Positions 8,247 to 26,083 of a stretch of 36,427 nt of DNA are shown here, in pieces. A model generated the notes under the pieces. It searched no databases, had not been told where the DNA came from, and was given only the letters and a program-made list of their open reading frames with translations. The translations under genes were made by a program, and so were the position numbers. How positions within the stretch are numbered: the first letter of the stretch is position 1; each line of letters opens with the position of its first letter. The stretch covers positions 4,844-41,270 of the forward strand of contig NZ_MUFC01000023.1 in NCBI RefSeq assembly GCF_001995985.1, written 5' to 3'. The stretch is from Salinivibrio sharmensis. GTDB lineage: Bacteria > Pseudomonadota > Gammaproteobacteria > Enterobacterales > Vibrionaceae.

Positions 8247-8275
8247 AGAGACTAGAAACTAGAGACTAGAGACTA
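8247..8275. repeat. Short CTAG heptamer array (about 4 units) upstream of wzz
   Basis: Four 7-bp units of the CTAGAGA/CTAGAAA type run in tandem 16 bases before the wzz start codon. Together with the longer array at 8752-8859 they bracket the four-helix-bundle gene. Confidence 0.85.
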
Positions 8276-8306
8276 TGAGTCAGATGCCATACCTTCCTTT
8301 GATTAT

Positions 8307-8666
8307 TCAAGTTGCTACTTTGAGTGCGCGTTTGTGTCGTGTTATCAAGCTAGCAAGGATTTTTGCAATTTCTCTTGCTTCACGGACCATTACCAAACCA
8401 GCTTCTCGTTCTATTTGTCCGGTTTTAATCGCGATTTGAAGCTGAGTCACCAATTCACCACATGAGCCTTTGGCGTAGTAGTAAAAGCGAACTTTTTCTT
8501 TTGATGTTTCACGTTCTTCCCCTTCTGCAATATTTGAGGGTATTGATAGGGATGACCGAAAAACTTGATCTTTAAGTGCAAAATTCTTGTTGTGCTCAAA
8601 TGTACTAAATACCGAGCACGCTAATTTTGATGAGCGTTGCCAAACACTCAGTTTTTCAAACAGCAT
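8307..8666 (-). CDS. Four-helix-bundle protein (S23/IVS-encoded family)
   Basis: With ATG 8666 as start (119 residues) the protein reads MLFEKLSVWQRSSKLACSVF, matching the usual opening of the 23S-rRNA intervening-sequence / four-helix-bundle family (FEKL-VW-RS), and contains SSLSIPSNIAEGEER, the family's most conserved segment. The longer reading from 8708 is not family-like. The function of this family is unknown; related small four-helix proteins include the Avd accessory proteins of diversity-generating retroelements, but no reverse transcriptase is visible here. The gene interrupts the polysaccharide operon between the SLBB gene and wzz, and is bounded on both sides by CTAG heptamer repeats, so it looks inserted. 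Confidence 0.85.
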   Translation of the reverse strand: MLFEKLSVWQRSSKLACSVFSTFEHNKNFALKDQVFRSSLSIPSNIAEGEERETSKEKVRFYYYAKGSCGELVTQLQIAIKTGQIEREAGLVMVREAREIAKILASLITRHKRALKVAT

Positions 8667-8751
8667 ATGTTGAGCCCTCTCGCCTTTGGGGCAAAGAGTA
8701 CAACTCATCTACTGTTTGTGTTTTTTGTCTTTACATTTCTGCGAGACACAG

Positions 8752-8859
8752 CTAGAGACTAGAGACTAGAGACTAGAGACTAGAGACTAGAGACTAGAGA
8801 CTAGAGACTAGAGACTAGAGACTAGAGACTAGAGACTAGAGACTAGAGACTAGAGACTA
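8752..8859. repeat. Tandem heptamer array CTAGAGA, 15.4 copies
   Basis: 108 bases of perfect CTAGAGA repeats (15 full units plus CTA), the longest and cleanest array in the window. It sits in the spacer between the four-helix gene and the SLBB export gene. Perfect identity suggests recent expansion by slippage. Confidence 0.98.
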
Positions 8860-8882
8860 TTTTATGAGCCGCTTTAAGCTTT

Positions 8883-8989
8883 TCCTAGTCTCTAGTTTCT
8901 AAAAGCGAAGCGTCTAGTCTCTCCCTAGCCTCTAGTTTCTAAAAGCGAAGCGTCTAGTCTCTCCCTCGTTTCTAGAAGCGAAGCGTCTA
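8883..8989. repeat. 40-bp direct repeat of inverted CTAG heptamers around an AAGCGAAGCG core
   Basis: Two near-identical 40-bp units (about 8883-8922 and 8923-8962) and a partial third contain CTAGTCTCTAG and AAAAGCGAAGCGTCTAGTC. They are in the opposite orientation to the CTAGAGA array at 8752-8859, so the two can base-pair into a large hairpin in any transcript crossing the region. Confidence 0.9.
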
Positions 8990-9016
8990 AACTCCGCTCT
9001 AGACTGCTCTTCGCCT

Positions 9017-11737
9017 TTAATCTTTAACCGCTTGCCATGCTACGCCCATTTGGTAGAGGATTTGGGTGGCGGTGGAGGCGGTGCTTAGGCCGTCTAGGTA
9101 GTCGGTGTCGATTGGAACGATGATGGTGTCGCCGGGTTCGAGTTGTTTTTGACTACGGCTGAACCAGAAGCTGTTGTTGGGCATCATTACTGAGCCGTCG
9201 GCGCGGACGACGTAGATGCGGTCGGTGTCGGCTTGTTGTTTGGTGCCGCCGGCGGATTCGATGTAGTCGCTGACGGTCATGCCCGGTTCAAACAGTTGGT
9301 TTGAGGTGAATTGCACTTCGCCCATAATGCTGACCACCGGGTTTTTCGGCGGTACGTAGAGCTTATCGCCGTTTTCGATCATGATGTTGGCAACGTCGTC
9401 ACCTTCAAGTGCGCGAGGCAGTGAAATCACCATGCGGCCGACGGCTTCGGCGTTTTGTAGCTCTTCGGCCAATGATAAGGCTTCTGACGGGCTGGTTGTA
9501 TATTGGGCGCTGCTGGTTTGACGGCGTAGCGCCAGGCTGCTGATTTCTTGTTGCAGTTGGCGATTGAGCATTTTTAAGCGCTCTTCTTCTTGGCGCTTGA
9601 GTCGCTCGCGACTAAACACCGACCCTTTGGGGTAAGCGAATTCGGTTAGGCCGCCGGCGCGTTCAATCACGTCTTTAATGGTTTCGCCACGCTCAAAGGC
9701 ATAAACGCCAGGGAAGCGCACTTCGCCTTGTAGTTCAATGGTGTTGTTTTTATGCCAGTTAGGCTTGGTTTTGATGTTAATCCGGTCTTGGCGATGAATG
9801 GCAAACTGCGGGCCCTCGCCTTTGATGGCTTTATTTAAATCCAGCGGATAATGACGCACGGTTAAACGGCCCTCCACCACTTGGCGGCGGGTGATTTCAG
9901 CTTGGCGCAAGTACGCGGCTTCGGTCAATCCGCCTGCGGCATCCAGCAGTTGCTCAAACGAGGCATTGGCCGGTAATGGGTACACGCCCGGATATTTTAC
10001 CGCGCCGCCCAGCTCCACAATCGCGGCATTGTACTGGTTGTTGGCTTGGTCTTTTAAGCGCTCGATAATTGGTTCAAGCTCTTGCTCGCGCAGTGAACGT
10101 TCGCCTTCGTCATCACGCTCTGCCAGTTTTTTCGCTAGTTTTGATTCGTTTTGCTTGGTTTGGCTTTGTACTTCTGCGCCGGTTTCTGCATCAATGTAGG
10201 TATCGCCACTGGTTTTTTTGTTAAGGCGTGATTTATCCACTTTTGCCGATTGACGTTGATCCCAGTATTGGCTGTCGATGCCGTTATTAAACACAAACAC
10301 CTGGTCGCCTTGTTGCAAGCGCAAGTTATCTGACGAGTTGGGGTGGTCAATGGCTTGGCCCAGTTTAAATTGCAACACTTCAATATTGCGCTCAGCGTCG
10401 ATTTCGCGCACCACCAGCGCATAATTAAGGTCGGCGGTGGGTTTTAGATCGCGTTGGGCATTGCTGACCAGATCGGCAATAGTCATCCCCGGCTCAAAGT
10501 TGTAGGCACCTTGGCGAACGACCTCGCCACGGAGCACCACGGCGTCGTCGAGCGCGTCGTTGCTTTTGGCGATTTTAATGTCATCGCCGTTTTTTACCGT
10601 AAAGGTTTGGCCTTTGCTGGTGCTCATGTCGAGGCTAAATTGCTGAATACCCGATTCGGTCACGCGTTTAACGCTAACGCTCGATAAGTACCCTTCTGGT
10701 AGTGCACCGCCTGCCATATTGATGGCGCTTGCAAGCGTGGTTGGGCCATTTAGCTCATATAATGCTGGCCGTAATACTTCTCCCTCAATGGCGACTTGGG
10801 CGCCACGCGCAGGCACAAACAAGGTGTCGCCTTTGAGTAAGCGCACATCGTTGCTGCTATCGCCGGCAAGGAGCAAGTCGTATAAATCTAAGATTTCAAT
10901 CACCTTGCCATTGCGCTTTAACTGAATATCACGCAATGAACCACTGGTTTTGATCCCGCCACTGGCCAACAAGGCTTGGGTCACCGTGGTTAAGCCATTG
11001 ACGGTATAAGCGCCGGGTTGTTTGACATCGCCCGCAAGATATACCTGCATGGTACGCATGGCGCCAATATCGACGGTAACATCTACGCCAATCACGCGCT
11101 GCTCGAACATGGCTTTGATTTGTTCGCGCACTTTACCGAAGGTCTCGCCAGCGACTTGCATCGGGCCATATTTAGGGAAATGGATGTTGCCATCACGCTT
11201 GACGGTGAGATCGTATTGCTGGTTTTCTTTACCAAACACTTGAATATCGAGGGTATCACCTGGGCCGATTTGATAATCGCTTGGCAGTGGTAAATCATCG
11301 ACCGACGCCATAGAGGCGGGTTTACCATCAAAAAAGGCATAACCGAAAGGTTTGAGGGTGTCGTCGTCTTGGCTTGAGGCCTTGCCGGGGTGGCGTATGT
11401 TATCCGATTGGCTTTGCTCACCGCCGATGCGCTCGGGTGTTTCGGGGGTGGTATTCGCATTTTGCTGTTCGTTATCACTGCTGCTTGTCGATAAGCTATC
11501 AAGATCCACACCGTACTGGCGTGCAAGCTGCTCTTGTTGTGCGCGCGGTAATTGCTTTAACTGTTGCAGCTGGCTGGCAGTTGGCGTGGCCGCCTCGGCG
11601 TGCGGCGCTGTTGTAAGCATCACCGCGCCCAGTAACAGAGCAGGTGCACAGGACAGTAGCGCGGGGGCACAACGGGTCAGGCCGCGCACGATAGTGGCGC
11701 CTAATGGCCGCCCGGTTGAAGATGAAAGCGTTGACAT
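9017..11737 (-). CDS. Polysaccharide export protein with six SLBB domains (Wza-related)
   Basis: A 906-residue secreted protein. Residues 1-49 form a long signal peptide ending AEA. A Poly_export domain lies at about 152-228 (YQIGPGDTLDIQVFG). Six SLBB beta-grasp modules follow at about 231-262, 315-345, 402-430, 573-603, 667-696 and 802-831, each with the GEV..PG.Y pattern. A charged Gln/Glu/Lys-rich linker at 500-560 and a helical stretch at 708-770 separate them. No lipobox Cys is evident, unlike classical Wza. It should form or line the outer-membrane/periplasmic export path of a capsule or exopolysaccharide and work with the Wzi and Wzz proteins on either side. Twice the length of E. coli Wza (about 380), it resembles the long SLBB exporters of Vibrio. 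Confidence 0.9.
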   Translation of the reverse strand: MSTLSSSTGRPLGATIVRGLTRCAPALLSCAPALLLGAVMLTTAPHAEAATPTASQLQQLKQLPRAQQEQLARQYGVDLDSLSTSSSDNEQQNANTTPETPERIGGEQSQSDNIRHPGKASSQDDDTLKPFGYAFFDGKPASMASVDDLPLPSDYQIGPGDTLDIQVFGKENQQYDLTVKRDGNIHFPKYGPMQVAGETFGKVREQIKAMFEQRVIGVDVTVDIGAMRTMQVYLAGDVKQPGAYTVNGLTTVTQALLASGGIKTSGSLRDIQLKRNGKVIEILDLYDLLLAGDSSNDVRLLKGDTLFVPARGAQVAIEGEVLRPALYELNGPTTLASAINMAGGALPEGYLSSVSVKRVTESGIQQFSLDMSTSKGQTFTVKNGDDIKIAKSNDALDDAVVLRGEVVRQGAYNFEPGMTIADLVSNAQRDLKPTADLNYALVVREIDAERNIEVLQFKLGQAIDHPNSSDNLRLQQGDQVFVFNNGIDSQYWDQRQSAKVDKSRLNKKTSGDTYIDAETGAEVQSQTKQNESKLAKKLAERDDEGERSLREQELEPIIERLKDQANNQYNAAIVELGGAVKYPGVYPLPANASFEQLLDAAGGLTEAAYLRQAEITRRQVVEGRLTVRHYPLDLNKAIKGEGPQFAIHRQDRINIKTKPNWHKNNTIELQGEVRFPGVYAFERGETIKDVIERAGGLTEFAYPKGSVFSRERLKRQEEERLKMLNRQLQQEISSLALRRQTSSAQYTTSPSEALSLAEELQNAEAVGRMVISLPRALEGDDVANIMIENGDKLYVPPKNPVVSIMGEVQFTSNQLFEPGMTVSDYIESAGGTKQQADTDRIYVVRADGSVMMPNNSFWFSRSQKQLEPGDTIIVPIDTDYLDGLSTASTATQILYQMGVAWQAVKD

Positions 11738-11821
11738 AGTGAGCGTGTTCCGTACTTATTATTCGCAGTGATAGTTGATATCAGCCGTCGTTGTTATCAG
11801 TCATTGCAGGTTAAGCGGCGA

Positions 11822-13180: not shown

Positions 13181-13239
13181 AAGTGATTTAACAACGCTGC
13201 AAATGTGAGAAGAAATGACTGTACGCGTCACGGGCAGCC

Positions 13240-13285
13240 GTGCCATTTGGATACGCTACCGCCCGGAGGTGTCGCTCCCCTGTGC
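13240..13285 (-). promoter_or_regulatory. JUMPstart with ops element, proximal copy (RfaH recruitment)
   Basis: On the minus strand GGCGGTAGCGTAT occupies 13263-13251, the ops core (GGCGGTAGCGT) within a CAGGGG..CACCTC context as in JUMPstart leaders of polysaccharide operons. RfaH binds ops in the paused elongation complex and makes polymerase resist Rho and pausing, which long capsule operons need. It lies 70-90 bases before the wzi start. Confidence 0.88.
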
Positions 13286-13402
13286 GCGGTGATTGGTTTG
13301 TTTTGTCCTATTTTTGACAATTTGAGTGACGCCTTTATGACACAAAACCGCTATCCGTCTCGTGTACTTACACTCTGTGCAACGCGCCGATATTGGCATC
13401 CA

Positions 13403-13450
13403 GTGTCGATTGGATACGCTACCGCCATGAGGTGTCGTTCCCCCCTGTAC
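13403..13450 (-). promoter_or_regulatory. JUMPstart with ops element, distal copy
   Basis: A second GGCGGTAGCGTAT is at 13426-13414 on the minus strand, 163 bases upstream of the proximal copy. About 46 bp of surrounding sequence is shared by both copies (ACAGGGG, CGACACCTC, ops, CCAA). Promoter activity must therefore lie above 13.45 kb. Confidence 0.85.
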
Positions 13451-13680
13451 GAATTTGCGGTTTGTGGCTGTCACTTTATTTATTAAGCACTGCCCGACAC
13501 GGTAACACGCGTTTGCTTACTCGCTGCCCAGCACAGTGCGTCAAATGTCTGACGTATTCTACATAGCTCAGCGGTCATTTAAAGTGTGTTTTAGCGTGAT
13601 TCGCTTACAAAAGAACATTTTGATTGTTTAATCGTCAAGCCTGGATAAAAAAGGTGGTTTAGATCACGGAATGGGGGAAA
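13451..13680 (-). promoter_or_regulatory. AT-rich upstream region of the polysaccharide operon, promoter not resolved
   Basis: The 230 bases above the distal ops element hold no credible gene. On the minus strand there are weak sigma-70-like candidates (for example TTGACG near 13635 and TAGAAT near 13560) but no well-spaced pair, so I do not fix a promoter. Heptamer repeats begin at about 13680. Confidence 0.35.
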
Positions 13681-13968
13681 CTAGGGACTAGGGAAAGAGC
13701 CTTGGGTCCTAGGTCCTAGGGAATCGGAATACGGAGCGCTGCGCTTACGGAGTACGGAAAGAGACGAGACGCTTCGCTTCTGGAAACTAGAAACTAGAGA
13801 CTACGGAATACGGAATACGGAATACGGAATACGGAATACGGAATACGGAATACGGAAAGAGCGTATCGTGCCAGCTCGGGTAGATAAAGTTCCTAGGTCC
13901 TAGGAATTGCTTTACGCTCTTTTCGGTATTCTGTAAGCGAAGCGCTCTGTATTCAAAAATCTTGAATA
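13681..13968. repeat. Composite heptamer element: CCTAGGT, GGAATAC and CTAG modules plus hairpin
   Basis: In order this holds CTAGGGA and CCTAGGT units (13681-13722), a GGAATAC/GGAGTAC block with a variant AGCGCTGCGCTT core, a CTAG module (GACGCTTCGCTTCTGG then AAACTAG units, 13764-13803), the GGAATAC array (13805-13853), then a hairpin block whose arms GAATACGGAAAGAGCGTA (from 13847) and TACGCTCTTTTCGGTATTC (to 13931) are complementary around a TTCCTAGGTCCTAGGAA loop. It ends with AGCGAAGCGCTCTGTATTC. The hairpin block is found again at 15757-15895. Confidence 0.88.
13805..13853. repeat. Tandem heptamer array GGAATAC, 7 copies
   Basis: Seven perfect GGAATAC units followed by GGAAAGA. Three units (21 bases) make seven codons, so the array stays open in every frame and creates false ORFs with an FRIPYSV repeat on the minus strand. 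Confidence 0.97.
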
Positions 13969-13972
13969 TCAC

Positions 13973-14170
13973 GTAGGTCGGTATAAGCGCCAATTCGATC
14001 GCGCAAGCTTGGGGGGATTTGCGCCGCGCGCCCGTTGCACGGCGCAATCGGACATTGGCGGTCAAATATTGGCATTGATCGTGATAGGCGCAGTGCAACT
14101 GGCGCCCAGGTGCCATAGTCCATCATAGTTGACACTTACCGGGGCTTGTGTCACCTACGCCAATGGGGTC
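13973..14170 (+). repeat. REP-like element (GTAGGTCGG head), copy 1
   Basis: It begins GTAGGTCGGTATAAGCGCC, has the internal hairpin GCGCCCGTTGCACGGCGC (from about 14026), and ends GGGGCTTGTGTCACCTACGC followed by CAATGG. The GTAG head followed by an imperfect palindrome is the hallmark of RAYT-associated REPs. The same ~190-bp sequence recurs at 15898 and, inverted, around the RAYT gene. Confidence 0.82.
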
Positions 14171-14174
14171 ATTT

Positions 14175-14289
14175 GACGGAATACGGAGAAGAGCAGCCTC
14201 GTGCTCGCATCCGGGCCTTTGCTCTTTCTGTACTCTGTATTCCGTCATCTGTATTCGGGAATGGGAATACGGAGCGCTTCGCTTACGGA
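14175..14289. repeat. Hairpin block with GGAATAC arms, abutting the MBL gene 3' end
   Basis: Arms GACGGAATACGGAG..AGAGCA (14175-14195) and TGCTCTTTCTG..GTATTCCGTC (14220-14246) pair around a CCTCGTGCTCGCATCC loop. A GAATACGGAGCGCTTCGCTT unit follows and runs into the stop codon of the MBL gene at 14290. Related blocks are at 17235-17345, 18866-18906 and 19770-19880. Confidence 0.85.
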
Positions 14290-15645
14290 CTACGGATTAC
14301 GGATAAGAGTGCCTAGCGCTTGCTGACTGTGCGGTTCGCCATGAATCAAGTGGATCTGCTTGGGGGGCGGTTGGATGCCTTGCACGAATTTGACCAAGTC
14401 GTTTTGATCGGCGTGGGCGGAGTAACCAGAGATTGTGTGGATTTGGGCGTTGACGGTGACTTGCGAGTTGTCTATCCACACTTGTTTGTTGCCTTGCTGG
14501 ATACCGCGGCCGAGGGTGTGTTGGGCTTGGTAGCCGGCAAAAATCACATCGGTGCGTTTGTCTTCAAGTAATGCGGCAAGGTAGTTCATGATGCGTCCGC
14601 CTTGGCACATACCGGAGGCGGCGACCACAATGGCTGGCTCGCCGGTTTGTTTGAGGCGATTCACCAACGCCATATGTTGGCTGTGTTCATCAATGGTAAT
14701 GCATTGCTCAAAGGCTAACGGATGACGGTGTTGGTTCAGTTTGGTTTTGGCCTCTTTGCTCCACAGCTTTTTGAACTGGCGATAGTGACGCGTCACCTTT
14801 TGCGCCATGGGTGAGTCAAGAATGATAGGGAGGGCATCATCAAGCTGCTTTTGGTGAATAAGCTGCTCAATATCAAACAACAGCTCTTGGGTGCGACCGA
14901 CACTGAATGCGGGGATCAATATCGCGCCACCGTCTTCGAGTGAGCGTTGAATAATGGCGTCTAGCCGCTGTGCGCGCGTGGCGACGGACTCATGGGTTTT
15001 ATCACCGTAGGTGGATTCTAAAAACAAGATATCGGCACGGGTTGGCGGGGTTGGATCGGGCAGCAGTGGCGTGTTGCTAGGCCCTAAATCGCCGGAGAAC
15101 ACTACGCGCTGCGCGTCGGGCAGTTTTAACTCGACATAGGCCGAGCCCAAAATATGCCCAGCCGGTTGCAAGCGCAAATAGGTCGCTGGCTGACCTTTTT
15201 GCTTGGGCTTTAGCCGATGCCAGCTGTTGTAAGGCAGTGTCACGGTTAACTGGCGGATGCGTTCGAGTACCTGCTGACGATTGCCGTAGTTCATGTTGAG
15301 TTGCAGCTTTAAAGTATCGTCAATCAATAGCGGCACCAATACAGCGGTGGCTTCAGTGCAATAAATAGGGCCGTTAAAGCCCGCGGCGAGTAGCCATGGC
15401 AGCAAACCACAGTGATCGATATGGGCGTGAGTGAGGATCAGCGCATCAATGCGTTTGCCGTTGAGGTTCACCCTCGCCTCCCGCGCTTCATCGCCTTGGT
15501 ATTGGCCGCAGTCAATCAGCAAGCGTAAGCCGCTCGGTTTTATATCCACTTGGTGGCAAGAGCCAGTCACGGTTTGATAGCCACCGTGGTGAGTGACTGT
15601 GAGGGTTTCATTGTTTAGTGAGGTTTTTAGTGAAGTGTTGGGCAT
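14290..15645 (-). CDS. MBL-fold / beta-CASP metallohydrolase (RNA-processing exonuclease type)
   Basis: A 451-residue metallo-beta-lactamase protein with a beta-CASP insert, the CPSF73/YSH1-like group of nucleases. The zinc motif THAHIDHCG has His73, His75, Asp77 and His78; later ligand segments are AGHILGSAY, FSGDLG and the C-terminal GYSAHADQNDL. The segment FLESTYGDKTH starts the beta-CASP region and ASGMCQGGRIMNYL is typical of it. Substrates of bacterial members are probably RNA, not proven here. The start ATG 15645 has AAGGA seven bases upstream. The last residues and the TAG stop are encoded by a GGATTAC-type repeat, so the natural C-terminus seems to have been replaced. A composite repeat begins about 24 bases before the start codon. 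Confidence 0.88.
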   Translation of the reverse strand: MPNTSLKTSLNNETLTVTHHGGYQTVTGSCHQVDIKPSGLRLLIDCGQYQGDEAREARVNLNGKRIDALILTHAHIDHCGLLPWLLAAGFNGPIYCTEATAVLVPLLIDDTLKLQLNMNYGNRQQVLERIRQLTVTLPYNSWHRLKPKQKGQPATYLRLQPAGHILGSAYVELKLPDAQRVVFSGDLGPSNTPLLPDPTPPTRADILFLESTYGDKTHESVATRAQRLDAIIQRSLEDGGAILIPAFSVGRTQELLFDIEQLIHQKQLDDALPIILDSPMAQKVTRHYRQFKKLWSKEAKTKLNQHRHPLAFEQCITIDEHSQHMALVNRLKQTGEPAIVVAASGMCQGGRIMNYLAALLEDKRTDVIFAGYQAQHTLGRGIQQGNKQVWIDNSQVTVNAQIHTISGYSAHADQNDLVKFVQGIQPPPKQIHLIHGEPHSQQALGTLIRNP

Positions 15646-15668
15646 AGTTACGTCCTTGGTGGGGGAGA

Positions 15669-15895
15669 TCCTAGGGTCCTAGGTCCTAGGGAAAGATTAC
15701 GGAATACGGAATACGGAATACGGAATACGGAATACGGAATACGGAATACGGAATACGGAATACGGAAAAAGCATATCGTGCCAGCTCTGGTAGATGAAGT
15801 TCCTAGGGCCTAGGATCCTAGGTCCTAGGAACTGCTTTACGCTCTTTTCGGTATTCTGTAAGCGAAGCGCTCTGTATTCAAAAATCATGAATATC
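15669..15895. repeat. Composite heptamer element: CCTAGGT units, 9 x GGAATAC, hairpin block
   Basis: CCTAGGT-type units (15669-15690) precede nine perfect GGAATAC units (15701-15763). The hairpin block then repeats that of 13846-13968: GGAAAAAGCATATCGTGCC, an almost perfect CCTAGG palindrome at about 15800-15831, TACGCTCTTTTCGGTATTC and AGCGAAGCGCTCTGTATTC. Same orientation as the copy on the other side of the MBL gene. Confidence 0.92.
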
Positions 15896-15897
15896 GC

Positions 15898-16090
15898 GTA
15901 GGTCGGTATAAGCGCCAGCACAATGCCAATCATTATCACGAAGTGAGCCGCGCGCCCGTTGCACGGCGCCATCGGACATTAAGGTTAAAATTGGCGCTGA
16001 TCGTGACAGGCGCCCGTTTACAATGTGCACCTATCCATCATCTTACCGGGGCTTGTGTCACCTACACCAATGTCACCATCGTCGCTAATG
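15898..16090 (+). repeat. REP-like element, copy 2
   Basis: GTAGGTCGGTATAAGCGCC head, GCGCGCCCGTTGCACGGCGC hairpin at about 15953-15970, and GGGGCTTGTGTCACCTAC tail. It follows the heptamer hairpin block exactly as copy 1 does, so heptamer block and REP appear to have been duplicated together. Confidence 0.82.
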
Positions 16091-16094
16091 GTAT

Positions 16095-17129: not shown

Positions 17130-17345
17130 GTAAGACCTTAGGGTCCTAGGTCCTAGGTCCTAGGGAAAGATTATGGAATACGGAATACGGAATACGGCGG
17201 AAAGAGACTAGACGCTTCGCTTCTAGAGACTAGAAAAAGCAGCCTCGTGCTCGCATCGGGGCCTTTGCTCTTTCCGTACTCTGTATTCCGTCATCGGTAT
17301 TCGGGAATTGGAATACAGAGCGCTTCGCTTACGGAGTACGGAAAA
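17130..17345. repeat. Composite heptamer element with nested CTAG module
   Basis: Three or more CCTAGGT units (about 17136-17164) and three GGAATAC units (17175-17196) are followed by a CTAG module GACTAGACGCTTCGCTTCTAG (17206-17226, overlapping units), then the AGCAGCCTCGTGCTCGCATC hairpin loop, TGCTCTTTCCGTACTC and a final GAGCGCTTCGCTTACGGA (about 17318-17335). The CTAG module sits inside what is the left hairpin arm at 14175. The remainder of the 17028-17377 spacer shows nothing else. Confidence 0.88.
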
Positions 17346-17377
17346 GAGCAGACCGAGCCCGTACTGTGGTTTTTCCT

Positions 17378-18544: not shown

Positions 18545-18584
18545 CGGATTTCCCTTAAGTAATGTCTAGAAAAAGGGTATCACG

Positions 18585-18906
18585 TGGGGGCTCTAGGGGA
18601 AAGATCCTAGGGCCTTTAGGGGAAAGGACCTAGATCCTAGTTCCTAGGTCCTAGGGAATAAATCATGGGTTACGGATTACAGATCACGGATTACGGATTA
18701 CGGATTACGGATTACGGATTACGGATTACGGAAAAAGCATATCGAGCCAACTCCGGTAGATAAAGGTCCTAGTTCCTAGGATCCTAGGGCCTAGGGCCTA
18801 GGGAATAGATTATGGATGACGGGAAAGGGTCGAGACGCTTCTAGAAACTAAAGGCTAGAGACTAGGTAAAGCAGACCGTGCTCGCATCGGGGTTCTTGCT
18901 CTTTCT
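18585..18906. repeat. Composite heptamer element: CCTAGGT, GGATTAC and CTAG modules
   Basis: CCTAGGT-type units at 18592-18655, nine GGATTAC-type units at 18667-18729, a truncated copy of the hairpin block (GGAAAAAGCATATCGAGCC), a CCTAGG cluster at 18768-18803, then a CTAG module and the GTGCTCGCATCGGGGTTC block. Bases 18794-18906 recur as a direct repeat at 19695-19813, on the far side of the OmpA-like gene. Confidence 0.88.
18667..18729. repeat. Tandem heptamer array GGATTAC, 9 units
   Basis: Nine units: GGGTTAC, GGATTAC, AGATCAC and six perfect GGATTAC. It occupies the position held by GGAATAC at 15701-15763, so the unit has changed by one base and then re-amplified. Confidence 0.95.
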
Positions 18907-18954
18907 ATGTTCAAGATCTTGAGTACGGCCAATACCTTTAAGACGACATGCTTT

Positions 18955-18984
18955 TTGTCTTATTTTCAGCCAAGTAGATATAAA
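18955..18984 (+). promoter_or_regulatory. Sigma-70-like promoter for the OmpA-like gene
   Basis: TTGTCT (18955-18960), 18 bases, then TATAAA (18979-18984). A CATGATTTAGTCATG inverted repeat (18991-19005) lies at the expected start of transcription and could be an operator. Confidence 0.55.
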
Positions 18985-19079
18985 ACAGCGCATGATTTAG
19001 TCATGTAACACTGTTAATGATTTCAATTATCGTTCTGATCATTACAATGCCAGCGCTTTTAATCTACGAGGATAGAATT

Positions 19080-19631
19080 ATGCGCTTAACAAAACTCATT
19101 GCAATTTCATGCTTGATCCCATCTGCTGTTGCCATAGCCAAGGATGCACCGAAAAAAGATATTATTGATGAATCTTATATAGGTATCCAACTTGGACAGT
19201 CATCCATCGACTATCAGGGGATAGATGATACCGATTCTGGTTTTAAACTATTGGCCGGACATCGTTATAAGAACATCGGTATTGAGGCGGCCTATACGGA
19301 TCTTGGCGGGACAAATGGTTACATCACCCCATATAAAACGTTCGCGCTTGATGCCTCTACAGTAAGTTTATCTGCGATGGGTTACCTACCAGTGAATGAG
19401 TCGTTTTCTTTCTTTGGTAAGCTGGGACTGAACAAATGGTCTGTCGATGGCACTGCTCGCACCCACAACCAAACCTTTTCTGACTCTTCAGATGGTACCG
19501 ATCCCGTTTTTGGCTTGGGCGCGACGTATGATTTGGGCCAGTATGTAAATCTGCGCGTTGAAGCCGAGCGTTATCAACTTGATGACGCAGACGTCGACTT
19601 TATTTCTGTTGGTGTCGGTTACATATTTTAA
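19080..19631 (+). CDS. Small outer-membrane beta-barrel protein (OmpA-like/OmpW-size)
   Basis: A 183-residue protein with signal peptide MRLTKLIAISCLIPSAVAIA. The mature part shows alternating strand patterns: YIGIQLGQSSIDYQ, FKLLAGHRYKNIGIEAAYTDLGG, VSLSAMGYLPVNESFSFFGKLGLNKW, DPVFGLGATYDLGQYVNLRVEAERYQ, and it ends on an aromatic residue (VGVGYIF), the barrel-assembly signal. This is the eight-stranded OmpA transmembrane-like fold without a peptidoglycan domain. ATG 19080 is chosen because GAGGA lies seven bases upstream; an in-frame ATG at 19017 would hide the signal peptide. It is the only plus-strand gene of the repeat-rich region from 13.5 to 22 kb and lies between direct repeats. Ligand or role unknown. 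Confidence 0.82.
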   Translation: MRLTKLIAISCLIPSAVAIAKDAPKKDIIDESYIGIQLGQSSIDYQGIDDTDSGFKLLAGHRYKNIGIEAAYTDLGGTNGYITPYKTFALDASTVSLSAMGYLPVNESFSFFGKLGLNKWSVDGTARTHNQTFSDSSDGTDPVFGLGATYDLGQYVNLRVEAERYQLDDADVDFISVGVGYIF

Positions 19632-19904
19632 CCGAAGCGCTCTGTATTCCAACTCCTGAATACCGATGCTGGAATACTAAGTTCCTAGGACCTAGGCCCT
19701 AGGGTATAGATTATGGATGACGGGAAGGGGACGAAACGCTTCGCTCCTAGAAACTAGAAACTAGAGGCTAGGTAAAGCAGCCTTGTTCTCGCATTGGGGT
19801 TCTTGCTCTTTCTGTACTCCGTATTCAGTACTCCGCATTCGGGAAATTGAATACGGAGCGCTTCGCTTACAGATAACGGAAAAGAGTAAGAAAGGCTCTA
19901 GGTC
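19632..19904. repeat. Composite heptamer element after the OmpA-like gene
   Basis: It begins directly at the stop codon with GAAGCGCTCTGTATTCC, then CCTAGG units (19681-19704), a CTAG module (19735-19772), the GTTCTCGCATTGGGGTTC hairpin block, a GAGCGCTTCGCTTACAG unit (19857) and a CTAGGTCCTAAGG unit that supplies the stop codon of the lipoprotein gene. Confidence 0.88.
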
Positions 19905-21389: not shown

Positions 21390-21601
21390 AGTTGATACTC
21401 TTTGGGTCTTGGTGCCAATCTAACGGCAAGTGTTTGCCTTTGAATGCATGATGGCGTGGGTTATGCAAAAAGTGAGCCGAAGCTACGTTACTATCCACTG
21501 CGACTAGGTTAGCGTTTTTAGATAAGGGATAAAAGCAACTTGGGCAATTGCTGTGAGGGTGAAAATAGCTTGAAATCATTGTTCGGTGAGGGATAGATAG
21601 C

Positions 21602-21629
21602 AAAAAACCGCCACGAGGGCGGTTTTTTT
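21602..21629 (-). terminator. Rho-independent terminator of tRNA-Ser
   Basis: Stem CCGCC/GGCGG with a five-base loop (21608-21622), A6 on one side and T7 on the other, five bases past the tRNA 3' end. It can act in both directions. Confidence 0.9.
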
Positions 21630-21634
21630 AATGA

Positions 21635-21722
21635 TGGCGGTGAGAGAGGGATTCGAACCCTCGATACGTTGCCGTATACACGCTTTCCAGGCGTGCTCCT
21701 TCAGCCACTCGGACACCTCACC
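21635..21722 (-). tRNA. serX: tRNA-Ser(GGA)
   Basis: 88 nt on the minus strand: acceptor GGTGAGG pairs with CTCACC near the 3' end, the class II long variable arm is ATACGGCAACGTAT, the T-arm GGTTCGAATCC is intact, and the anticodon is GGA in ACGCCTGGAAAGCGT. The CCA end is encoded. It decodes UCC and UCU. The sequence is almost identical to E. coli tRNA-Ser(GGA) as I recall it. Confidence 0.96.
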
Positions 21723-21790
21723 ATATTGTCTGTTACGCGAGCTATTTATTGGGTGGACTTGAGCTACCCGCAGTCGCGTTAACGGGGCGT

Positions 21791-21819
21791 ACTATAGAGA
21801 GTTGCCGCTTTGCGGTCAA
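21791..21819 (-). promoter_or_regulatory. Promoter of tRNA-Ser
   Basis: On the minus strand TTGACC (21819-21814), 17 bases, TATAGT (21796-21791), followed by a GC-rich discriminator (ACGCCCCG) typical of stringently controlled stable-RNA promoters. The tRNA starts about 60 bases downstream. Confidence 0.85.
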
Positions 21820-22009
21820 GCTGTTGGTGATGGCTTTGGGTTTAAATGGCTATTCCATCACCAAAAGCATCTCTATGTCTGGAAAAACTGAGTTAACTCC
21901 CCCCGATTCAGTCGCCAACGTATTGAGCAACAGCGTGCGAGCGATGGAAGCGCGCGAGTGCGAAAGCTGTTAAACTCATGGCATTGATCAAAATACAAAT
22001 AAGAGTGTT

Positions 22010-22588
22010 ATGACGTTAGCCGACTTTCTCACCCAGCATGCCGATAGCGAGCAGCTACTTAACGAAATGCAAACTCGTGGTGTCGTCACCGCGATGGCGG
22101 CCGCGCCTCATGTTATTAGCCCTAGCGAGTGGCTTCCTGTGATGTGGGGTGGCGAAGAACAAGCGCCGTTTGAGAATCATGAGCAGTTTGAGCAGTACGC
22201 CAATCTGATTGTGGATATTTGGAATGAACAGCGTCAGCAGTTGTTGGAGAAAACCTGGCTATGGCCAGAAGGCTGTTTGCTTGATGACGCTGAGATTGTC
22301 AACCAAGCGACGCGCGATTTCGCCGAAGGGTTACTACAAGGCTGGAGCCTGACCCGTGATGACTGGGAAACACTGATGCCGGAAAACACCGATGGTAATG
22401 CCCTACTCGGTGGCGTGGTGCTGTCTATTAGCTTGCTTTACGACCCAGAAACCGCGCTTTCTACCATGGAAGCGCAAGGCGCCGAAGAGCTGGCACAGTT
22501 TGAGGAAATCTTTAACGCCATGCCTACCATGTTGTGTGGTTTAAGCCTCCACGGTGCGGCGTTGGCGGAAGATGCAGAAGGGGCATAA
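22010..22588 (+). CDS. UPF0149 / YecA-YgfB family protein
   Basis: A 192-residue acidic protein whose pattern matches the UPF0149 family: an N-terminal helix MTLADFLTQHADSEQLLNEM, G-V-TAMAAAPHVISPSEWLPVMWGGEE, and FAEGLLQGWSLTRDDWETL. The SEC-C metal-binding tail found in YecA is absent, so it is the short form. The family's biochemical role is not established. ATG 22010 follows an AAGAG about seven bases upstream. It lies after the tRNA-Ser promoter region, divergent from it; the 21820-22009 gap holds no other gene that I can support. A heptamer element begins directly after its stop. Confidence 0.82.
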   Translation: MTLADFLTQHADSEQLLNEMQTRGVVTAMAAAPHVISPSEWLPVMWGGEEQAPFENHEQFEQYANLIVDIWNEQRQQLLEKTWLWPEGCLLDDAEIVNQATRDFAEGLLQGWSLTRDDWETLMPENTDGNALLGGVVLSISLLYDPETALSTMEAQGAEELAQFEEIFNAMPTMLCGLSLHGAALAEDAEGA

Positions 22589-22592
22589 AAGT

Positions 22593-22723
22593 AGGGTCCT
22601 AGGCGATAGTATACAGGGCCTTGAATACAGAGCGCTTCGCTTACGGAGTAAGGGAAGAGCAGAAATCAGTGCCTAGGTCCTAGGATCCTAGGACCTAGGC
22701 ACTTAGTTCTCCGTATTCCGTCA
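22593..22723. repeat. Composite heptamer element with 36-bp perfect palindrome
   Basis: GAATACAGAGCGCTTCGCTT (from 22623) leads to a perfect 36-bp palindrome at 22668-22703 made of CCTAGGT units around a central GGATCC, then CTTAGTTCTCCGTATTCCGT. A near copy is at 25963-26063. Confidence 0.93.
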
Positions 22724-22730
22724 AATGATT

Positions 22731-22911
22731 CGATTGGCGACGATGGCGCAAGCCCTTACCCGATGTTGGATACGTACAAATAGGCCAACGCGGGCGCCTG
22801 TCACGATCGAAGTTAATCGTTGGCTTTGATATCGGATGGCGCCGTGCAACGGGCGCGCGGCGGAAATCACACCAAGCTTGTGCGATCGAGAAGGCGCTTA
22901 TGCCGACCTAC
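22731..22911 (-). repeat. REP-like element, copy 3 (inverted)
   Basis: Reads as a minus-strand GTAGGTCGGCATAAGCGCC head at 22911, with the GCGCCGTGCAACGGGCGCGC hairpin at about 22842-22861 and a degenerate tail. Copy 4 follows head-to-tail; the two heads are exactly 200 bp apart. Confidence 0.8.
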
Positions 22912-22930
22912 GCCTGGTTTGTATATCGGT

Positions 22931-23111
22931 GGTTCCATTGGCGTAGGTGACACAAGCCCCGGCAAGGTGTTGGGTATGTGCACATTGCCAACTGGGCGCC
23001 TGTCACGATCGGTGCCAATTTTAACCACGATGTCGATGGCGCCGTGCAACGGGCGCGCGGCGGAAATCACGCCAAGCTTGTGCGATCGAGAAGGCGCTTA
23101 TACCGACCTAC
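22931..23111 (-). repeat. REP-like element, copy 4 (inverted)
   Basis: The most complete copy: tail CCATTGGCGTAGGTGACAC at 22934, hairpin at about 23040-23060 and head CGCTTATACCGACCTAC ending at 23111. It carries the longer central segment (CACGCCAAGCTTGTGCGATC) that copies 1, 3, 5 and 8 share and copy 2 lacks. Confidence 0.82.
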
Positions 23112-23181
23112 GCCTGGTTTATATATCGATGATTCCATCCGACCTTGTATTTTTTTAGGTAATATAAACAACTTACTGCCA

Positions 23182-23469
23182 CTAATGAGCTTCTAATGCT
23201 TTGTAAAACTCAGGGTTATCTTTAATAGTGTGAAGCACCTTCGCAGCTAAACCGGAGGGATTACGACGCTTGTTTTCCCAGCTTTTTACTGTCTCTACGC
23301 TCACGCTCATCGCTTTGGCAAACTCAGAGCGAGATACATTCAGAATATCTTCACGAATAGCCTTAACGTCTTCAATGGCATAAGAAGTAACACGAGAGGG
23401 CTCCATGTTTTCTTTCTTGATTTCGACTGCCTCTTCAAGGGACGTCTTTAGATCTGCAAAAATACTCAT
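23182..23469 (-). CDS. higA: HigA2/NadS-type antitoxin, XRE family
   Basis: A 95-residue antitoxin with a C-terminal helix-turn-helix: the segment IREDILNVSRSEFAKAMSVSVETVKSWENKRRNPSGLAAKVL is the HigA-type XRE domain, with the recognition helix around VSVETVKSWE. The N-terminal 35 residues are charged and probably form the toxin-binding tail. It starts within the end of higB (four-base ATGA overlap). Toxin-first order with a C-terminal DNA-binding domain is the HigB2-HigA2 arrangement known in Vibrio cholerae. It should repress its own promoter at 23823-23884. Confidence 0.9.
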   Translation of the reverse strand: MSIFADLKTSLEEAVEIKKENMEPSRVTSYAIEDVKAIREDILNVSRSEFAKAMSVSVETVKSWENKRRNPSGLAAKVLHTIKDNPEFYKALEAH

Positions 23470-23801
23470 TCCCCATTACCTCGAAGTTGTTTAACTAGTT
23501 CTTTCAACTGCTTTTTCTCTTCATGTGTCAAAGTTTCTTGCGTTGCTTTAGCATACACATACACTAAATAAATGGTTTCAGCGTGAGCAAAATAATATAG
23601 GACCCTTAGACTCCCGCTCTTTCCTTGCCCTTTCTTGGCCATCCTGACTTTTCTTAGCCCACCTGTACCTTGAATCAGATCGCCCTTTTCAGGTTGAGCG
23701 ATGAGTTCGCTCTGTAGCTCTTTCAATTCATCATCAGATGCGAGTGCAGTAATTAATCTGGTAAATGTTGGGGTCTCAATAAAATGGAGTGCGTGGCTCA
23801 C
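23466..23801 (-). CDS. higB: HigB2/RelE-type toxin (mRNA interferase)
   Basis: A 111-residue RelE-fold toxin. The stretch DLIQGTGGLRKVRMAKKGQGKSGSLRVLYYF closely matches the HigB2 core (D-IQGTGGLRK-R), with basic residues that in the family act at the ribosome to cleave mRNA. GTG 23801 has AAGGAG eight bases upstream and is the first codon. It is cotranscribed with the overlapping antitoxin gene. The pair sits between REP copies in a spacer that otherwise has no genes. Confidence 0.9.
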   Translation of the reverse strand: MSHALHFIETPTFTRLITALASDDELKELQSELIAQPEKGDLIQGTGGLRKVRMAKKGQGKSGSLRVLYYFAHAETIYLVYVYAKATQETLTHEEKKQLKELVKQLRGNGE

Positions 23802-23822
23802 GTTTGGAGCTCCTTATACCTT

Positions 23823-23884
23823 ATAGTATGTGTACTAAGTACCCGCTGTCAACATAGCCCAACGAAATAACGGGTACACAGTAC
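23823..23884 (-). promoter_or_regulatory. higBA promoter with two operator-like palindromes
   Basis: On the minus strand TTGACA (23852-23847), 18 bases, TACTAT (23828-23823). A perfect GTACT-A-AGTAC palindrome (23832-23842) lies between the boxes, and a related GTAC-ACA-GTAC (23874-23884) lies upstream, 42 bp centre to centre. These are probable HigA binding sites. Confidence 0.7.
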
Positions 23885-23917
23885 ACTAAAAATGTGTTCG
23901 TTGATGCACTGCGCCTG

Positions 23918-24068
23918 TTACGTTCGGCGCCAATTTTGACCACGATGTCGGATGGCGCGCGGCGGAAATCACACCAAGCTTGTGCGATCGAGAAGGCGCT
24001 TATGCCGACCTACGCCTGGTTTATATATCGATGATCCTATTGGCGACGGTGACACAAATCCCTGCGCA
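23918..24068 (-). repeat. REP-like element, copy 5, and the tail of a further copy
   Basis: Inverted copy with its head GTAGGTCGGCATAAGCGCC at 24013; the CCGTGCAACGG segment of the hairpin is deleted. A tail-like piece (TATTGGCGACGGTGACACAA, 24035-24054) follows, just before the RAYT gene. Confidence 0.75.
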
Positions 24069-24185
24069 ACAAACACTTTCGATCTTGTTTCTCGGCTGAA
24101 TTCTAATTTATTGTAATGAAACTTGATTCCTGCCTTGGGTTCGCGTCACTTGATCGTATGTGAAGGTGGCAAAAGAGAGCCTGGA

Positions 24186-24671
24186 ATGCGGTATCGGAGA
24201 AATTATGCACATGGTGGCACGTATTTTTTTACGGTAAATCTACACGACAGAGAGATGCAATTGCTCACGGAGCATATAAGGTTACTGCGTTCAGCGGTGG
24301 CAACCGTCAAAGCGTCTCGTCCTTTTCAAATCGATGCTTGGGTTGTTTTACCTGATCATTTACATGCTATTTGGACACTTCCCGATAATGACTCAGATTA
24401 TTCAACTAGGTGGCGCGAGATAAAGAAGCTATTTACTAAAAGTGTGTCCCGAATTGATAAGCGACTCGTTACAGGAAAAGGGATGGTATGGCAAGATCGG
24501 TTTTGGGAGCATACAACCAGGGATGAGCGAGATTTTAAGCATCATTTTGATTATGTGCATTTCAATCCGGTTAAACATGGTTGGGTTGAGCGCGTCGTTG
24601 ATTGGCCGTATTCCTCATTTCATCGTGAAGTTAAAAGAGGGATTTATCATCCCTCGTGGAATTTGTGTTGA
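24186..24671 (+). CDS. REP-associated tyrosine transposase (RAYT), HUH/Y1 family
   Basis: A 161-residue transposase related to IS200/IS605 TnpA. It opens MRYRRNYAHGGTYFFTVNL, the typical RAYT start (RRxxxxGGxYFFT). The metal-binding HUH motif is His58-Leu59-His60 in VVLPDHLHAIW, and the catalytic Tyr is Tyr123 in FDYVHFNPVKHGW. WQDRFWEHTTRDERDF is the conserved middle segment. Key residues are all present, so it looks functional. ATG 24186 is chosen on homology; an in-frame TTG at 24123 would add unrelated residues. RAYTs act on REP hairpins with a GTAG-type guide; the many GTAGGTCGG repeats around it are the likely substrate. Confidence 0.93.
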   Translation: MRYRRNYAHGGTYFFTVNLHDREMQLLTEHIRLLRSAVATVKASRPFQIDAWVVLPDHLHAIWTLPDNDSDYSTRWREIKKLFTKSVSRIDKRLVTGKGMVWQDRFWEHTTRDERDFKHHFDYVHFNPVKHGWVERVVDWPYSSFHREVKRGIYHPSWNLC

Positions 24672-24714
24672 GCAATTATCGATGCAGAACGATAATTTAA
24701 ACGCCGATGATATC

Positions 24715-24902
24715 ATTGGCGTCAATGACACAAGCCCCTGCAAGATGTTGGATAAGTGCACCTTGTCAACGGGCGCTTGTTACACTGCGCCATGCAATGG
24801 GCGCCTGTTACGATCGGTGCTAAATTTACCACCAATGTAGGATGGAGCGCGGCCCACATTGTGATACTTATTGGCACTGTGCTGGCGCTTATGCCGACCT
24901 AC
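24715..24902 (-). repeat. REP-like element, copy 6 (inverted)
   Basis: Degenerate copy downstream of the RAYT: ATTGGCGTCAATGACACAAG at 24717, GCGCCATGCAATGGGCGCCT near 24787, head GTAGGTCGGCATAAGCGCC at 24902. It resembles copy 2 in its central part (CACATTGTGATACTTATTGG) and not copies 3-5. Confidence 0.75.
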
Positions 24903-24920
24903 GCGTACTTTAACGGCAAT

Positions 24921-25082
24921 GATACCATTCAAGATTGGCACTAAACTTGGCTTTAATGTCCGATGGCACCGTGCAACGGGCGCGCGGCATACATTGTGAT
25001 AATTATTGGCATCGTGCTGGCGCTTATGCCGACCTACGCTTGGTTTATATATCGGCGGTTGTATAGGCGTATGGCACAATTC
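24921..25082 (-). repeat. REP-like element, copy 7 (inverted), and tail of a further copy
   Basis: Shorter copy with TGTCCGATGGCACCGTGCAA near 24957 and its head GTAGGTCGGCATAAGCGCC at 25036, followed by a degenerate tail (TATAGGCGTATGGCACAA, 25064-25081) that ends about 25 bases before the HepT ribosome-binding site. Confidence 0.75.
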
Positions 25083-25117
25083 GGGGATCGACTCCCTAAC
25101 CCTGCAAGGAGGTGAAA

Positions 25118-25531
25118 ATGACGGATACACACCTGGAGCGCTGGCAACTTCGACTTCAAAACCTGATTAAAGCCCAACGTCGGCTTGAAAACGCTTGCGG
25201 ACAAGAAAGCTATAACGAACTTGAGCTGGCAGGCCTCGTGCAAACCTTTGAGTTTACTTTTGAGCTCACGTGGAAAACCTTAAAAGACTTATTAAGCTAC
25301 GAAGGGTTTGATGTTGCATCGCCGCGCAGTGTCATTCGCACAGCGTTAGAAGCCAACCATCTGTCGTCGGATCAGTGTGAAACCTTGCTTGACGCGCTAG
25401 TAAAACGAAACTTGCTTTCGCACACCTACGACGAGCAAAATGCCCTCGAAGCGCAAAGACTGATCGTTAAACATTATGCCCCTGTTATTGCCGAGATCAT
25501 GCGGTATTTGGAGAATAAAAGTGGACAATAA
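25118..25531 (+). CDS. hepT: HepT-like HEPN toxin of a type VII toxin-antitoxin pair
   Basis: A 137-residue helical protein of the HI0074/HEPN family. The RNase motif R-x4-H-x-Y is seen as RNLLSHTY, with Arg97, His102 and Tyr104. In the characterised Shewanella pair the partner MntA adds AMP residues to the Tyr of this motif and so silences the toxin. LELAGLVQTFEFTFELTWKTLKD is the typical HI0074 segment. ATG 25118 has a strong AAGGAGG five bases upstream; the GTG at 25112 overlaps that site. The mntA start overlaps the end of this gene by 11 bases. Confidence 0.88.
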   Translation: MTDTHLERWQLRLQNLIKAQRRLENACGQESYNELELAGLVQTFEFTFELTWKTLKDLLSYEGFDVASPRSVIRTALEANHLSSDQCETLLDALVKRNLLSHTYDEQNALEAQRLIVKHYAPVIAEIMRYLENKSGQ

Positions 25532-25841
25532 TGCCACGTTCTTGATGGGGGTAGGGTTAAAACCCCATCAATTTCAACTGCTCCAAGATATGGTATTCAG
25601 CCACCCTGGCGTCCAACACGCCTGGATCTTTGGCTCTCGCGCAACCGGCACATTTAGGGATAATTCTGATATCGACATCATGCTTGAGGGCAACGCATTA
25701 ACATTCAATGATGTAGCAATAATACAAGATAAACTCGAGCAATCGACGCTTCCTTTCACCGTTGATATCGTGCTCAAACATCAAACTCAATCGTCTGAGC
25801 TCATCACACGTATTCGCGAAGAAGCCAAGCAAGTAAAGTAA
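25521..25841 (+). CDS. mntA: MntA-like nucleotidyltransferase antitoxin
   Basis: A 106-residue minimal nucleotidyltransferase. The active-site motif GS-x10-D-x-D is complete: Gly38-Ser39 and Asp50, Asp52 in IFGSRATGTFRDNSDIDIML, with a third acidic residue likely in FTVDIVLK. By analogy with the Shewanella pair it would AMPylate HepT and neutralise it. I use GTG 25521, seven bases after GGAG; an ATG at 25545 would give a shorter form without a good ribosome-binding site. Overlap with hepT implies coupled translation. Confidence 0.87.
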   Translation: MDNNATFLMGVGLKPHQFQLLQDMVFSHPGVQHAWIFGSRATGTFRDNSDIDIMLEGNALTFNDVAIIQDKLEQSTLPFTVDIVLKHQTQSSELITRIREEAKQVK

Positions 25842-25851
25842 TCCAAAGGCG

Positions 25852-25949
25852 CCAAATTTACCACCAATGTCCGATGGCGCCGTGCAACGGGCGCGCGGCG
25901 GAAATCACGCCAAGCTTGTGCGATCGAGAAGGCGTTTATGCCGACCTAC
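25852..25949 (-). repeat. REP-like element, copy 8 (inverted, tail missing)
   Basis: TGTCCGATGGCGCCGTGCAA (25867), the GGGCGCGCGG hairpin arm, CAAGCTTGTGCGATCGAGAA and the head at 25949. It starts 11 bases after the mntA stop, and a heptamer element begins about 14 bases further on. Confidence 0.8.
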
Positions 25950-25962
25950 GCGACATTCAGGG

Positions 25963-26083
25963 TTTTTGAATATAGAGCGCTTCGCTTACGGAATACGGGA
26001 AGAGTAGAAAGCAGAGCCTAGGCCCTAGGATCCTAGGCACTTAGTTCTCAGTATTCCGTCATCTTTTCCTAGGCCCTAGGAAC
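25963..26083. repeat. Composite heptamer element next to nadA
   Basis: Near copy of 22614-22723: AGAGCGCTTCGCTTACGGAA (25976), a CCTAGG cluster with a GGATCC centre (26017-26039), CTTAGTTCTCAGTATTCCGT, then CCTAGGCCCTAGG (26069-26081). It ends about five bases before the nadA stop codon. This is the rightmost heptamer element seen. Confidence 0.9.

Follow-up and report, generated by a model that had tools for sequence, protein, structure and literature searches.

Heptamer arrays, hairpin blocks and an S23/IVP gene in spacers of a Salinivibrio surface-polysaccharide region

The spacers of a 36,427-nt stretch of Salinivibrio sharmensis DNA (the window; contig NZ_MUFC01000023.1, positions 4,844 to 41,270) carry, between 8.2 and 26.1 kb, mosaics of tandem 7-bp units and hairpin blocks, and a gene of the S23/IVP family (8307-8708) lies there between two such arrays. 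Both the heptamer class of repeats and the intervening sequences (IVSs) of 23S rRNA that carry S23p are already known; the link between S23/IVP genes and heptamers is new and testable. In the open-access literature, which our search covered, we found nothing joining heptamer repeats and S23p beyond one remark on Coxiella. Neither the heptamer repeats of bacteria nor the S23/IVP family has an agreed explanation, and a physical link would merge the two questions into one: does the S23/IVP protein, or RNA containing it, act on the stem arrays? Repeats that border S23/IVP genes may thereby help to explain the origin of such repeats.

The comparisons with published systems below draw on parts of the cited papers. 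Heptameric short tandemly repeated repetitive sequences (STRRs) or simple sequence repeats (SSRs) are described from cyanobacteria, Xanthomonas (GGGAATC), Nostoc (GGGGA(C/T)T) and Beggiatoaceae (TAACTGA) (PMC4692102, PMC4679880), and heptamers are over-represented in many bacteria, for which slippage has been proposed (PMC4692102). Like the repeats studied here, they are tandem 7-mers, mostly intergenic, with several units mixed per genome, and their filled spacers have shorter counterparts in relatives with indels in 7-nt steps. They are described as genome-wide, whereas the Salinivibrio arrays are bound to one region and, unlike STRRs and SSRs, are tied to hairpin blocks with a common core and border an S23/IVP gene. 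In the 23S IVS of Coxiella, which has been termed selfish, tandem GACAGAT heptamers stand immediately 5' of the S23p open reading frame (ORF), in numbers that vary between strains (PMC4990558). It shares with our material the protein family (PF05635, TIGR02436) and the heptamers 5' of the ORF, and IVSs share with many of the plasmid loci below the inverted termini around the ORF. In contrast to IVSs, the S23/IVP genes considered here lie outside rRNA, the window copy being between wzz and wza genes, and the window locus has direct CTAGARA borders with a partial inverted match.

Three further systems bear a resemblance. The Bacillus tandem repeats of constant size and variable sequence (units of 52 or 20-21 nt) also keep the unit length while the sequence changes; they differ in phylum, in their longer units and, in the part of the paper covered, in having no S23/IVP link (PMC8161180). 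The blocks of the window resemble miniature inverted-repeat transposable elements in being short, ORF-less, palindromic, multi-copy and intergenic, and differ in having no target-site duplication visible by eye at two spacers, ragged ends and no identified parent transposase. Finally, repetitive extragenic palindromic (REP) sequences and bacterial interspersed mosaic elements, with their REP-associated tyrosine transposase (RAYT), are present in the window as a second family of palindromic spacer repeats, whose distribution in Salinivibrio differs from that of the heptamer blocks.

The S23/IVP gene and the heptamer mosaics of the window

The window is part of a genome of 40 contigs and 3.33 Mb (G000). 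Repeat parts and their coordinates were checked by reading the sequence, with TRF, with a repeat finder and against a motif list, and the arrays, units and coordinates of a preliminary description of this DNA were borne out. The features are as follows.

8247-8275, plus strand: (CTAGARA)4 array bordering the S23/IVP gene on the left (TRF, motif list)
8307-8708, minus strand: S23 / 23S_rRNA_IVP four-helix-bundle gene, encoding 133 aa if read from the longest start (PF05635, E 1.3e-28; TIGR02436; NF008912)
8752-8859, plus strand: (CTAGAGA)15 array bordering the S23/IVP gene on the right (TRF, 15.4 copies, 100% match)
8884-8990, minus strand: three inverse CTAGARA arms with the AAGCGAAGCG core, which the RNA fold pairs with the CTAGAGA array (TRF, repeat finder, fold)
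13680-13957, plus strand: mosaic of CCTAGGN, core with CTAGARA, GGAATAC array (13802-13857), hairpin block and inverse arm with core
14177-14302, plus strand: second type of hairpin block, with GAATACGG / CCGTATTC arms and core (repeat family D5)
15668-15885, plus strand: mosaic of CCTAGGN, GGAATAC array (15698-15767), hairpin block (15768-15885) and inverse arm with core (genus-wide search)
17142-17348, plus strand: mosaic of CCTAGGT array, three GGAATAC units, CTAGARA with core and hairpin block
18587-18910, plus strand: mosaic of CCTAGGN, GGATTAC array (18670-18732), CTAGARA units and hairpin
19629-19886, plus strand: mosaic of inverse arm with core, CCTAGGN, CTAGAAA and hairpin block
22598-22722, no strand assigned: hairpin block with CCTAGGN palindrome and core (fold z -8.7; repeat family D14)
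25966-26080, no strand assigned: hairpin block with CCTAGGN palindrome and core (repeat family D14)

The S23/IVP gene, which has a solved relative in 2gsc_A, sits between wzz-like and wza-like genes according to the protein scans of the window. It had been overlooked in the preliminary description, as had the RAYT gene treated below. Other window genes identified by protein scans include a beta-CASP hydrolase gene (14290-15645), which we take to be rjg, a DUF900 esterase gene, ugd and a UPF0149 gene.

The core, AAGCGAAGCG/CGCTTCGCTT, occurs 12 times between 8.2 and 26.1 kb in the motif list. The statement that nearly every spacer in this interval is built from the same parts was too broad: many spacers are, while those at 11738-11821, 13247-13679 and 21390-22009 contain none of the four motifs listed, and the repeat sequence from 22.7 to 25.95 kb belongs mostly to the REP-type family around the RAYT gene, distinct from the heptamer parts. 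When five heptamer-bearing stretches were folded as DNA, each against 200 shuffles, three beat all of their shuffles (15768-15885, z -4.9; 22616-22725, z -8.7; 17199-17348, z -3.4) and two were unremarkable (8845-8990, z -0.1; 13858-13957, z -1.8).

S23/IVP genes beside arrays in other genera and on plasmids

The comparison took in seven other Salinivibrio genomes (G001-G007, G001 being closed with a 2.84-Mb chromosome), further genera of the family (g3 and g8) and the Vibrio genomes G081, G225, G289 and G319. The Vibrio clusters likewise have a PF05635/TIGR02436 gene between wza and wzz, with GGATTAC and GGAATAC arrays bordering it. Wherever the fetched loci contain a wza-wzz pair of this type (7 of 7, from three genera), an S23/IVP gene lies between the two genes with repeats on both sides, and the classes of repeat differ: CTAGARA in the window, CCTAGGN in G001, GGATTAC and GGAATAC in the Vibrio genomes G225 and G289, and in g3 either CCTAGGN or 8-bp GGTCCTAG units. 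An eighth S23/IVP gene, in G148, has another setting, with TTCAAGG units on one side. The wza-wzz loci were found via their arrays and therefore cannot test the association between arrays and gene; the plasmid collection can.

Two sets of plasmid loci were used (set 1, 15 loci of 20 records; set 2, 12 loci), with the other ORFs of the same loci as controls. For period 7 in set 1, exact arrays of at least 2.4 copies were found within 50 bp of 10/15 S23/IVP genes versus 16/126 other ORFs (p 1.4e-5); the counts were 8/15 versus 14/126 at 2.7 copies and 5/15 versus 7/126 at 3.0. With periods 7-9, set 2 gave 7/12 versus 7/99 and both sets together 15/27 versus 23/225, or 11/23 versus 17/184 after thinning. 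Inverted flanks of at least 13 nt surround 15 of the 27 plasmid S23/IVP loci versus 1 of 131 control ORFs, a difference that holds at thresholds from 11 to 17, whereas direct flank matches are rare in both groups (1/27 versus 2/131). Ten of the 15 loci with inverted flanks also carry an exact 7-9-bp array within 300 bp, and at one locus (L302) the fold has a long heptamer stem enclosing the S23/IVP ORF. On plasmids, S23/IVP genes are thus statistically linked both to 7-9-bp arrays and to inverted flanks.

Three plasmid copies, all cyanobacterial, are embedded in rows of CRISPR-Cas genes (L304:4995-5354, L307:4977-5345 and L309:4986-5342), twice between cas6 and cas4 and once between cas10 and a Cmr3-family gene.

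Regional confinement, turnover and unit length

Exact tandem arrays of period 4-15 with about three copies or more were sought in 1.13 of the 3.33 Mb of G000. Period-7 arrays numbered 18, of which 17 lie inside a 74.5-kb island, the remaining 1,056 kb having one; five mononucleotide shuffles of the scanned 1.13 Mb gave none, which upholds the view that the repeats are not a product of chance. The island runs over three contigs (C37 from 210 kb, the whole of C16, and C23 up to 14 kb) and comprises the surface-polysaccharide locus with adjoining core genes. This contig order is backed by synteny with G001; joining C37 to C16 is an inference, and the gene content at that point is different. The single array outside the island, at C37:27403-27436, is made of 4.9 copies of ACTAGCG.

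Other measures give the same picture. A search of the whole of G000 with the block at 15655-15885 placed 30/30 matches inside the island, and in G001 all 31 block matches and all 27 CCTAGGNCCTAGG sites lie at 1,783-1,885 kb (about 102 kb) of the chromosome. Cores in the island versus the rest of the 1.13 Mb numbered 18 versus 3 in one orientation and 7 versus 6 in the other. The whole-genome spread described for Xanthomonas and Nostoc heptamers is therefore not seen here (17/18 arrays in 75 kb of the scanned 1.13 Mb; 31/31 block matches in about 102 kb of G001). The remaining Salinivibrio genomes have 25 (G006), 23 (G004), 9 (G005), 5 (G003), 2 (G002) and 0 (G007) block matches. Since the island holds housekeeping genes, the label of accessory spacers is wrong: the same parts stand between core genes, at rjg-esterase and UPF0149-nadA in the window and, outside it, at ruvA-ruvC and beside galE.

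For the comparison of orthologous spacers, up to six genomes were available. At ruvA-ruvC, G002 has about 74 bp without repeats, G003 a block with one GGAATAC unit, G001 about ten mixed GGAATAC/GGATTAC units and G000 seven GGATTAC units. The rjg-esterase spacer is 40-57 bp long and repeat-free in G002, G003 and G007; it contains CTAGARA units in G001 and both GGAATAC and CTAGARA units in G005, and that of G000 has nine to ten GGAATAC units with a REP block. Because orthologous spacers are empty or differently filled in different species, the copies turn over, and they do so in array presence, copy number and unit class. The comparison of filled and empty sites proposed in the preliminary description, run here between species, thus revealed changes of copy number and even of unit class at the same spacer. 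Arrays of 7 bp whatever their sequence in the scanned part, together with this turnover, are what slippage plus turnover predicts, and to that extent the suggested slippage-type generation stands. As an idea it is not new, heptamer over-representation and a polymerase-footprint slippage hypothesis being already published (PMC4692102; part of the paper covered).

An origin tied to the replication strand was tried and rejected: in Vibrio G225 and G289, array strand shows no agreement with the sign of the GC skew in the sampled 20-kb pieces. In a tree of blocks (24 chosen, 2 absent for length, 22 used), which we do not take as proof, good support is limited to 2 of the 19 inner forks; of the four ruvA-ruvC blocks, three cluster with one another (93/77), and the remaining one falls within the same eight-row group.

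Other Vibrionaceae, from which the preliminary description knew of no described counterpart in this modular form, also have such heptamers: (GGAWTAC)4 occurs in 22/296 genomes of the family, in 4/13 genera, and sequence belonging to this block family, its core included, is present in Vibrio G319 and G081. A single 7-bp unit size describes the scanned part of G000, where the exact scan found no island arrays of period 6 or 8-15, and fails elsewhere, with 8-bp arrays in g3 and 8- and 9-bp arrays beside S23/IVP genes on plasmids. To the right of 1420 in L266, and to the right of the IVP gene in L267 (reverse), 8-bp GGTCCTAG arrays replace the 7-bp CCTAGGN of other species; the unit length can therefore shift. 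The 22-mer GAATACGGAATACGGAATACGG matches 99 stretches in a collection of bacterial and archaeal genomes, from Vibrio, Shewanella and Endozoicomonas to Chloroflexi; the loci, which were selected for a heptamer, are rich in other 7-mers, whereas arrays of other lengths are few in them. One Chloroflexi metagenome-assembled genome, Dive96_bin3.68 (L042-L139), supplies many of the 99 AATACGG stretches, which are mixed with further 7-mers that contain ACGG, among them AACACGG and AATCCGT.

Explanations for the spacer family

Our preferred explanation, which we regard as evenly poised between right and wrong, is that the spacer family consists of IVS-like hairpin elements with arms of 7-bp units that grow by slippage, comprising an S23/IVP-bearing member and ORF-less kin. 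The spacers would hold small elements of this kind. One member would carry the S23/IVP ORF (8307-8708) bordered by heptamer arrays, and the others would be ORF-less hairpins with CCTAGG palindromes and the AAGCGAAGCG core in one arm. One arm would often expand by replication slippage into a pure heptamer array, and the ORF-less blocks would be non-autonomous relatives, descended from or dependent on the ORF-bearing element. Copies would have built up and been replaced within one region, the surface-polysaccharide locus with its surroundings, the S23/IVP gene being a standing part of the wza-wzz segment in some lineages; any activity of the protein in this scheme is presumed. In its favour stand the confinement and turnover described above, the repeat-bordered S23/IVP genes of the seven wza-wzz loci, the plasmid excess of arrays and inverted flanks, the heptamer stem of L302 and the heptamers beside the Coxiella S23p ORF. 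The regional confinement may stem from a long stay of the gene at wza-wzz. In the one genome that bears on this, G002, no S23/IVP gene was found in the 120 kb around the locus, and there are just two weak block matches.

Several observations weigh against this explanation. The inverted flanks of the plasmid loci are not general in Vibrionaceae: flanks of at least 13 nt within 160 bp are present at 3/8 Vibrionaceae loci, all with palindromic CCTAGG units, the window gene has an inverted match of 7 nt within 160 bp and 17 nt within 300 bp, and the RNA fold of the window joins the CTAGAGA array to the inverse arms beside it instead of spanning the ORF. On plasmids, set 2 with period 7 gave 3/12 versus 6/99 (p 0.056), and 0/12 at 2.7 copies or more; the widening to periods 7-9 and the inverted-flank measure were picked after seeing the data; periods 4-6 are mildly enriched as well (6/27 versus 17/225 in both sets); and the plasmid S23/IVP loci are nearly all cyanobacterial. 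The notion that an S23/IVP gene accompanies every AATACGG array was rejected, with an IVP-like ORF in 2 of the 99 loci at the sensitivity of a profile built from eight Vibrionaceae sequences. Blocks are present in G003-G006 with no S23/IVP gene in the fetched pieces, which cover the loci in part. No target-site duplication was seen by eye at ruvA-ruvC or rjg-esterase, where the ends are ragged. Local spread by distance was also rejected, block divergence being uncorrelated with chromosomal distance in G000 (r -0.12, p 0.67, 7 blocks) and G001 (r 0.10, p 0.31, 8 blocks). In Coxiella, moreover, S23p is in its authors' view probably not made in vivo, the RNA mattering more (PMC4990558, part of the paper covered).

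A wider claim, which we advance tentatively and think rather unlikely, is that S23/IVP proteins mark widespread free-standing IVS-like elements whose stems are 7-9-bp arrays on which the protein acts, and that array-only derivatives account for many unexplained bacterial heptamers, including this mosaic.

The repeats could instead be ordinary heptamers of the STRR type, arising by slippage at short palindromic seeds in a region enriched through the import and recombination of polysaccharide loci, with the S23/IVP gene as a passenger. The published over-representation of heptamers and its proposed cause, the turnover of unit class and number, the 97 of 99 AATACGG loci without an IVP-like ORF in the fetched locus and the scatter of several Vibrio arrays away from polysaccharide genes all fit this account. 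Under it one would not expect S23/IVP genes to exceed other ORFs of the plasmid loci in 7-9-bp arrays and inverted flanks, or the same gene to be bordered by different unit classes in different genera, and we consider it doubtful.

Retention of the arrays as recombination tracts or switch sequences, aiding exchange or regulation of surface-polysaccharide genes, strikes us as improbable. Regional confinement would be expected on this account. Polysaccharide markers, from a panel derived from the window, its island and one g3 locus, were found in 10/11 array-bearing g3 pieces and the single g8 piece versus 3/53 control pieces of G000, and in two Vibrio genomes 5/6 and 7/10 sites of at least five units fall within 39 and 51 kb, in the vicinity of polysaccharide genes or right at them. 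Against it, arrays also occupy core spacers such as ruvA-ruvC, the array-free species G002 keeps its polysaccharide locus, and clear markers were present in only 3 (L242, L271 and L136) of 20 Vibrio array loci, of which nine are just 8 kb long and one site is present twice (L110, L274). The last result led to the rejection of a polysaccharide link as a family-wide rule. The confinement in Salinivibrio and the polysaccharide-gene clusters in related genera make a natural system for studying the regional build-up of repeats.

The RAYT gene lies amid its own REP-type repeats, as members of a RAYT/REP system do.

24123-24671, plus strand: RAYT gene, separate system (NF047646, E 1.2e-57)
15886-16085, plus strand: REP-type repeat, separate family, with further copies at about 13958-14166 and 22740-25950

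An origin of the heptamer blocks in this system, suggested by the presence of its gene and repeats in the same G000 island and by the abutting of some REP and heptamer blocks, is disfavoured and in our view very improbable: a close RAYT homologue was found in 3/8 Salinivibrio genomes (G000, G005, G006), G001 has 31 block matches and no close RAYT (best 31% identity), on which ground RAYT was rejected as the heptamer generator, and REP matches are most numerous in G006 (51) and G005 (28), where heptamer-block matches number 25 and 9.

Searches for other mobile origins were negative within their scope. The block at 15655-16090 had no blastn match in the plasmid or phage collections; S23/IVP gave no tblastn match in phages and, with one protein query, none confirmed in viral contigs; and no insertion sequence was named among the selected window proteins scanned, in which no search aimed at insertion sequences was made. 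Within that scope, the refuting case of the preliminary description, decay of one known insertion sequence, found no support. In Rfam, the window yielded a tRNA and a CpoB/ybgF RNA thermometer (28200-28363), and no heptamer block or rRNA was named.

The tRNA, a tRNA-Ser(GGA) at 21635-21722, stands in a spacer without heptamer motifs. Amid the REP repeats, adjoining RelE-type (PF06296) and helix-turn-helix (PF01381) genes at 23182-23801 form a toxin-antitoxin-like pair. A second, HepT-MntA-like pair at 25112-25841 consists of adjoining NTase_sub_bind/HepT-like and Polbeta nucleotidyltransferase genes, both with close homologues in G001.

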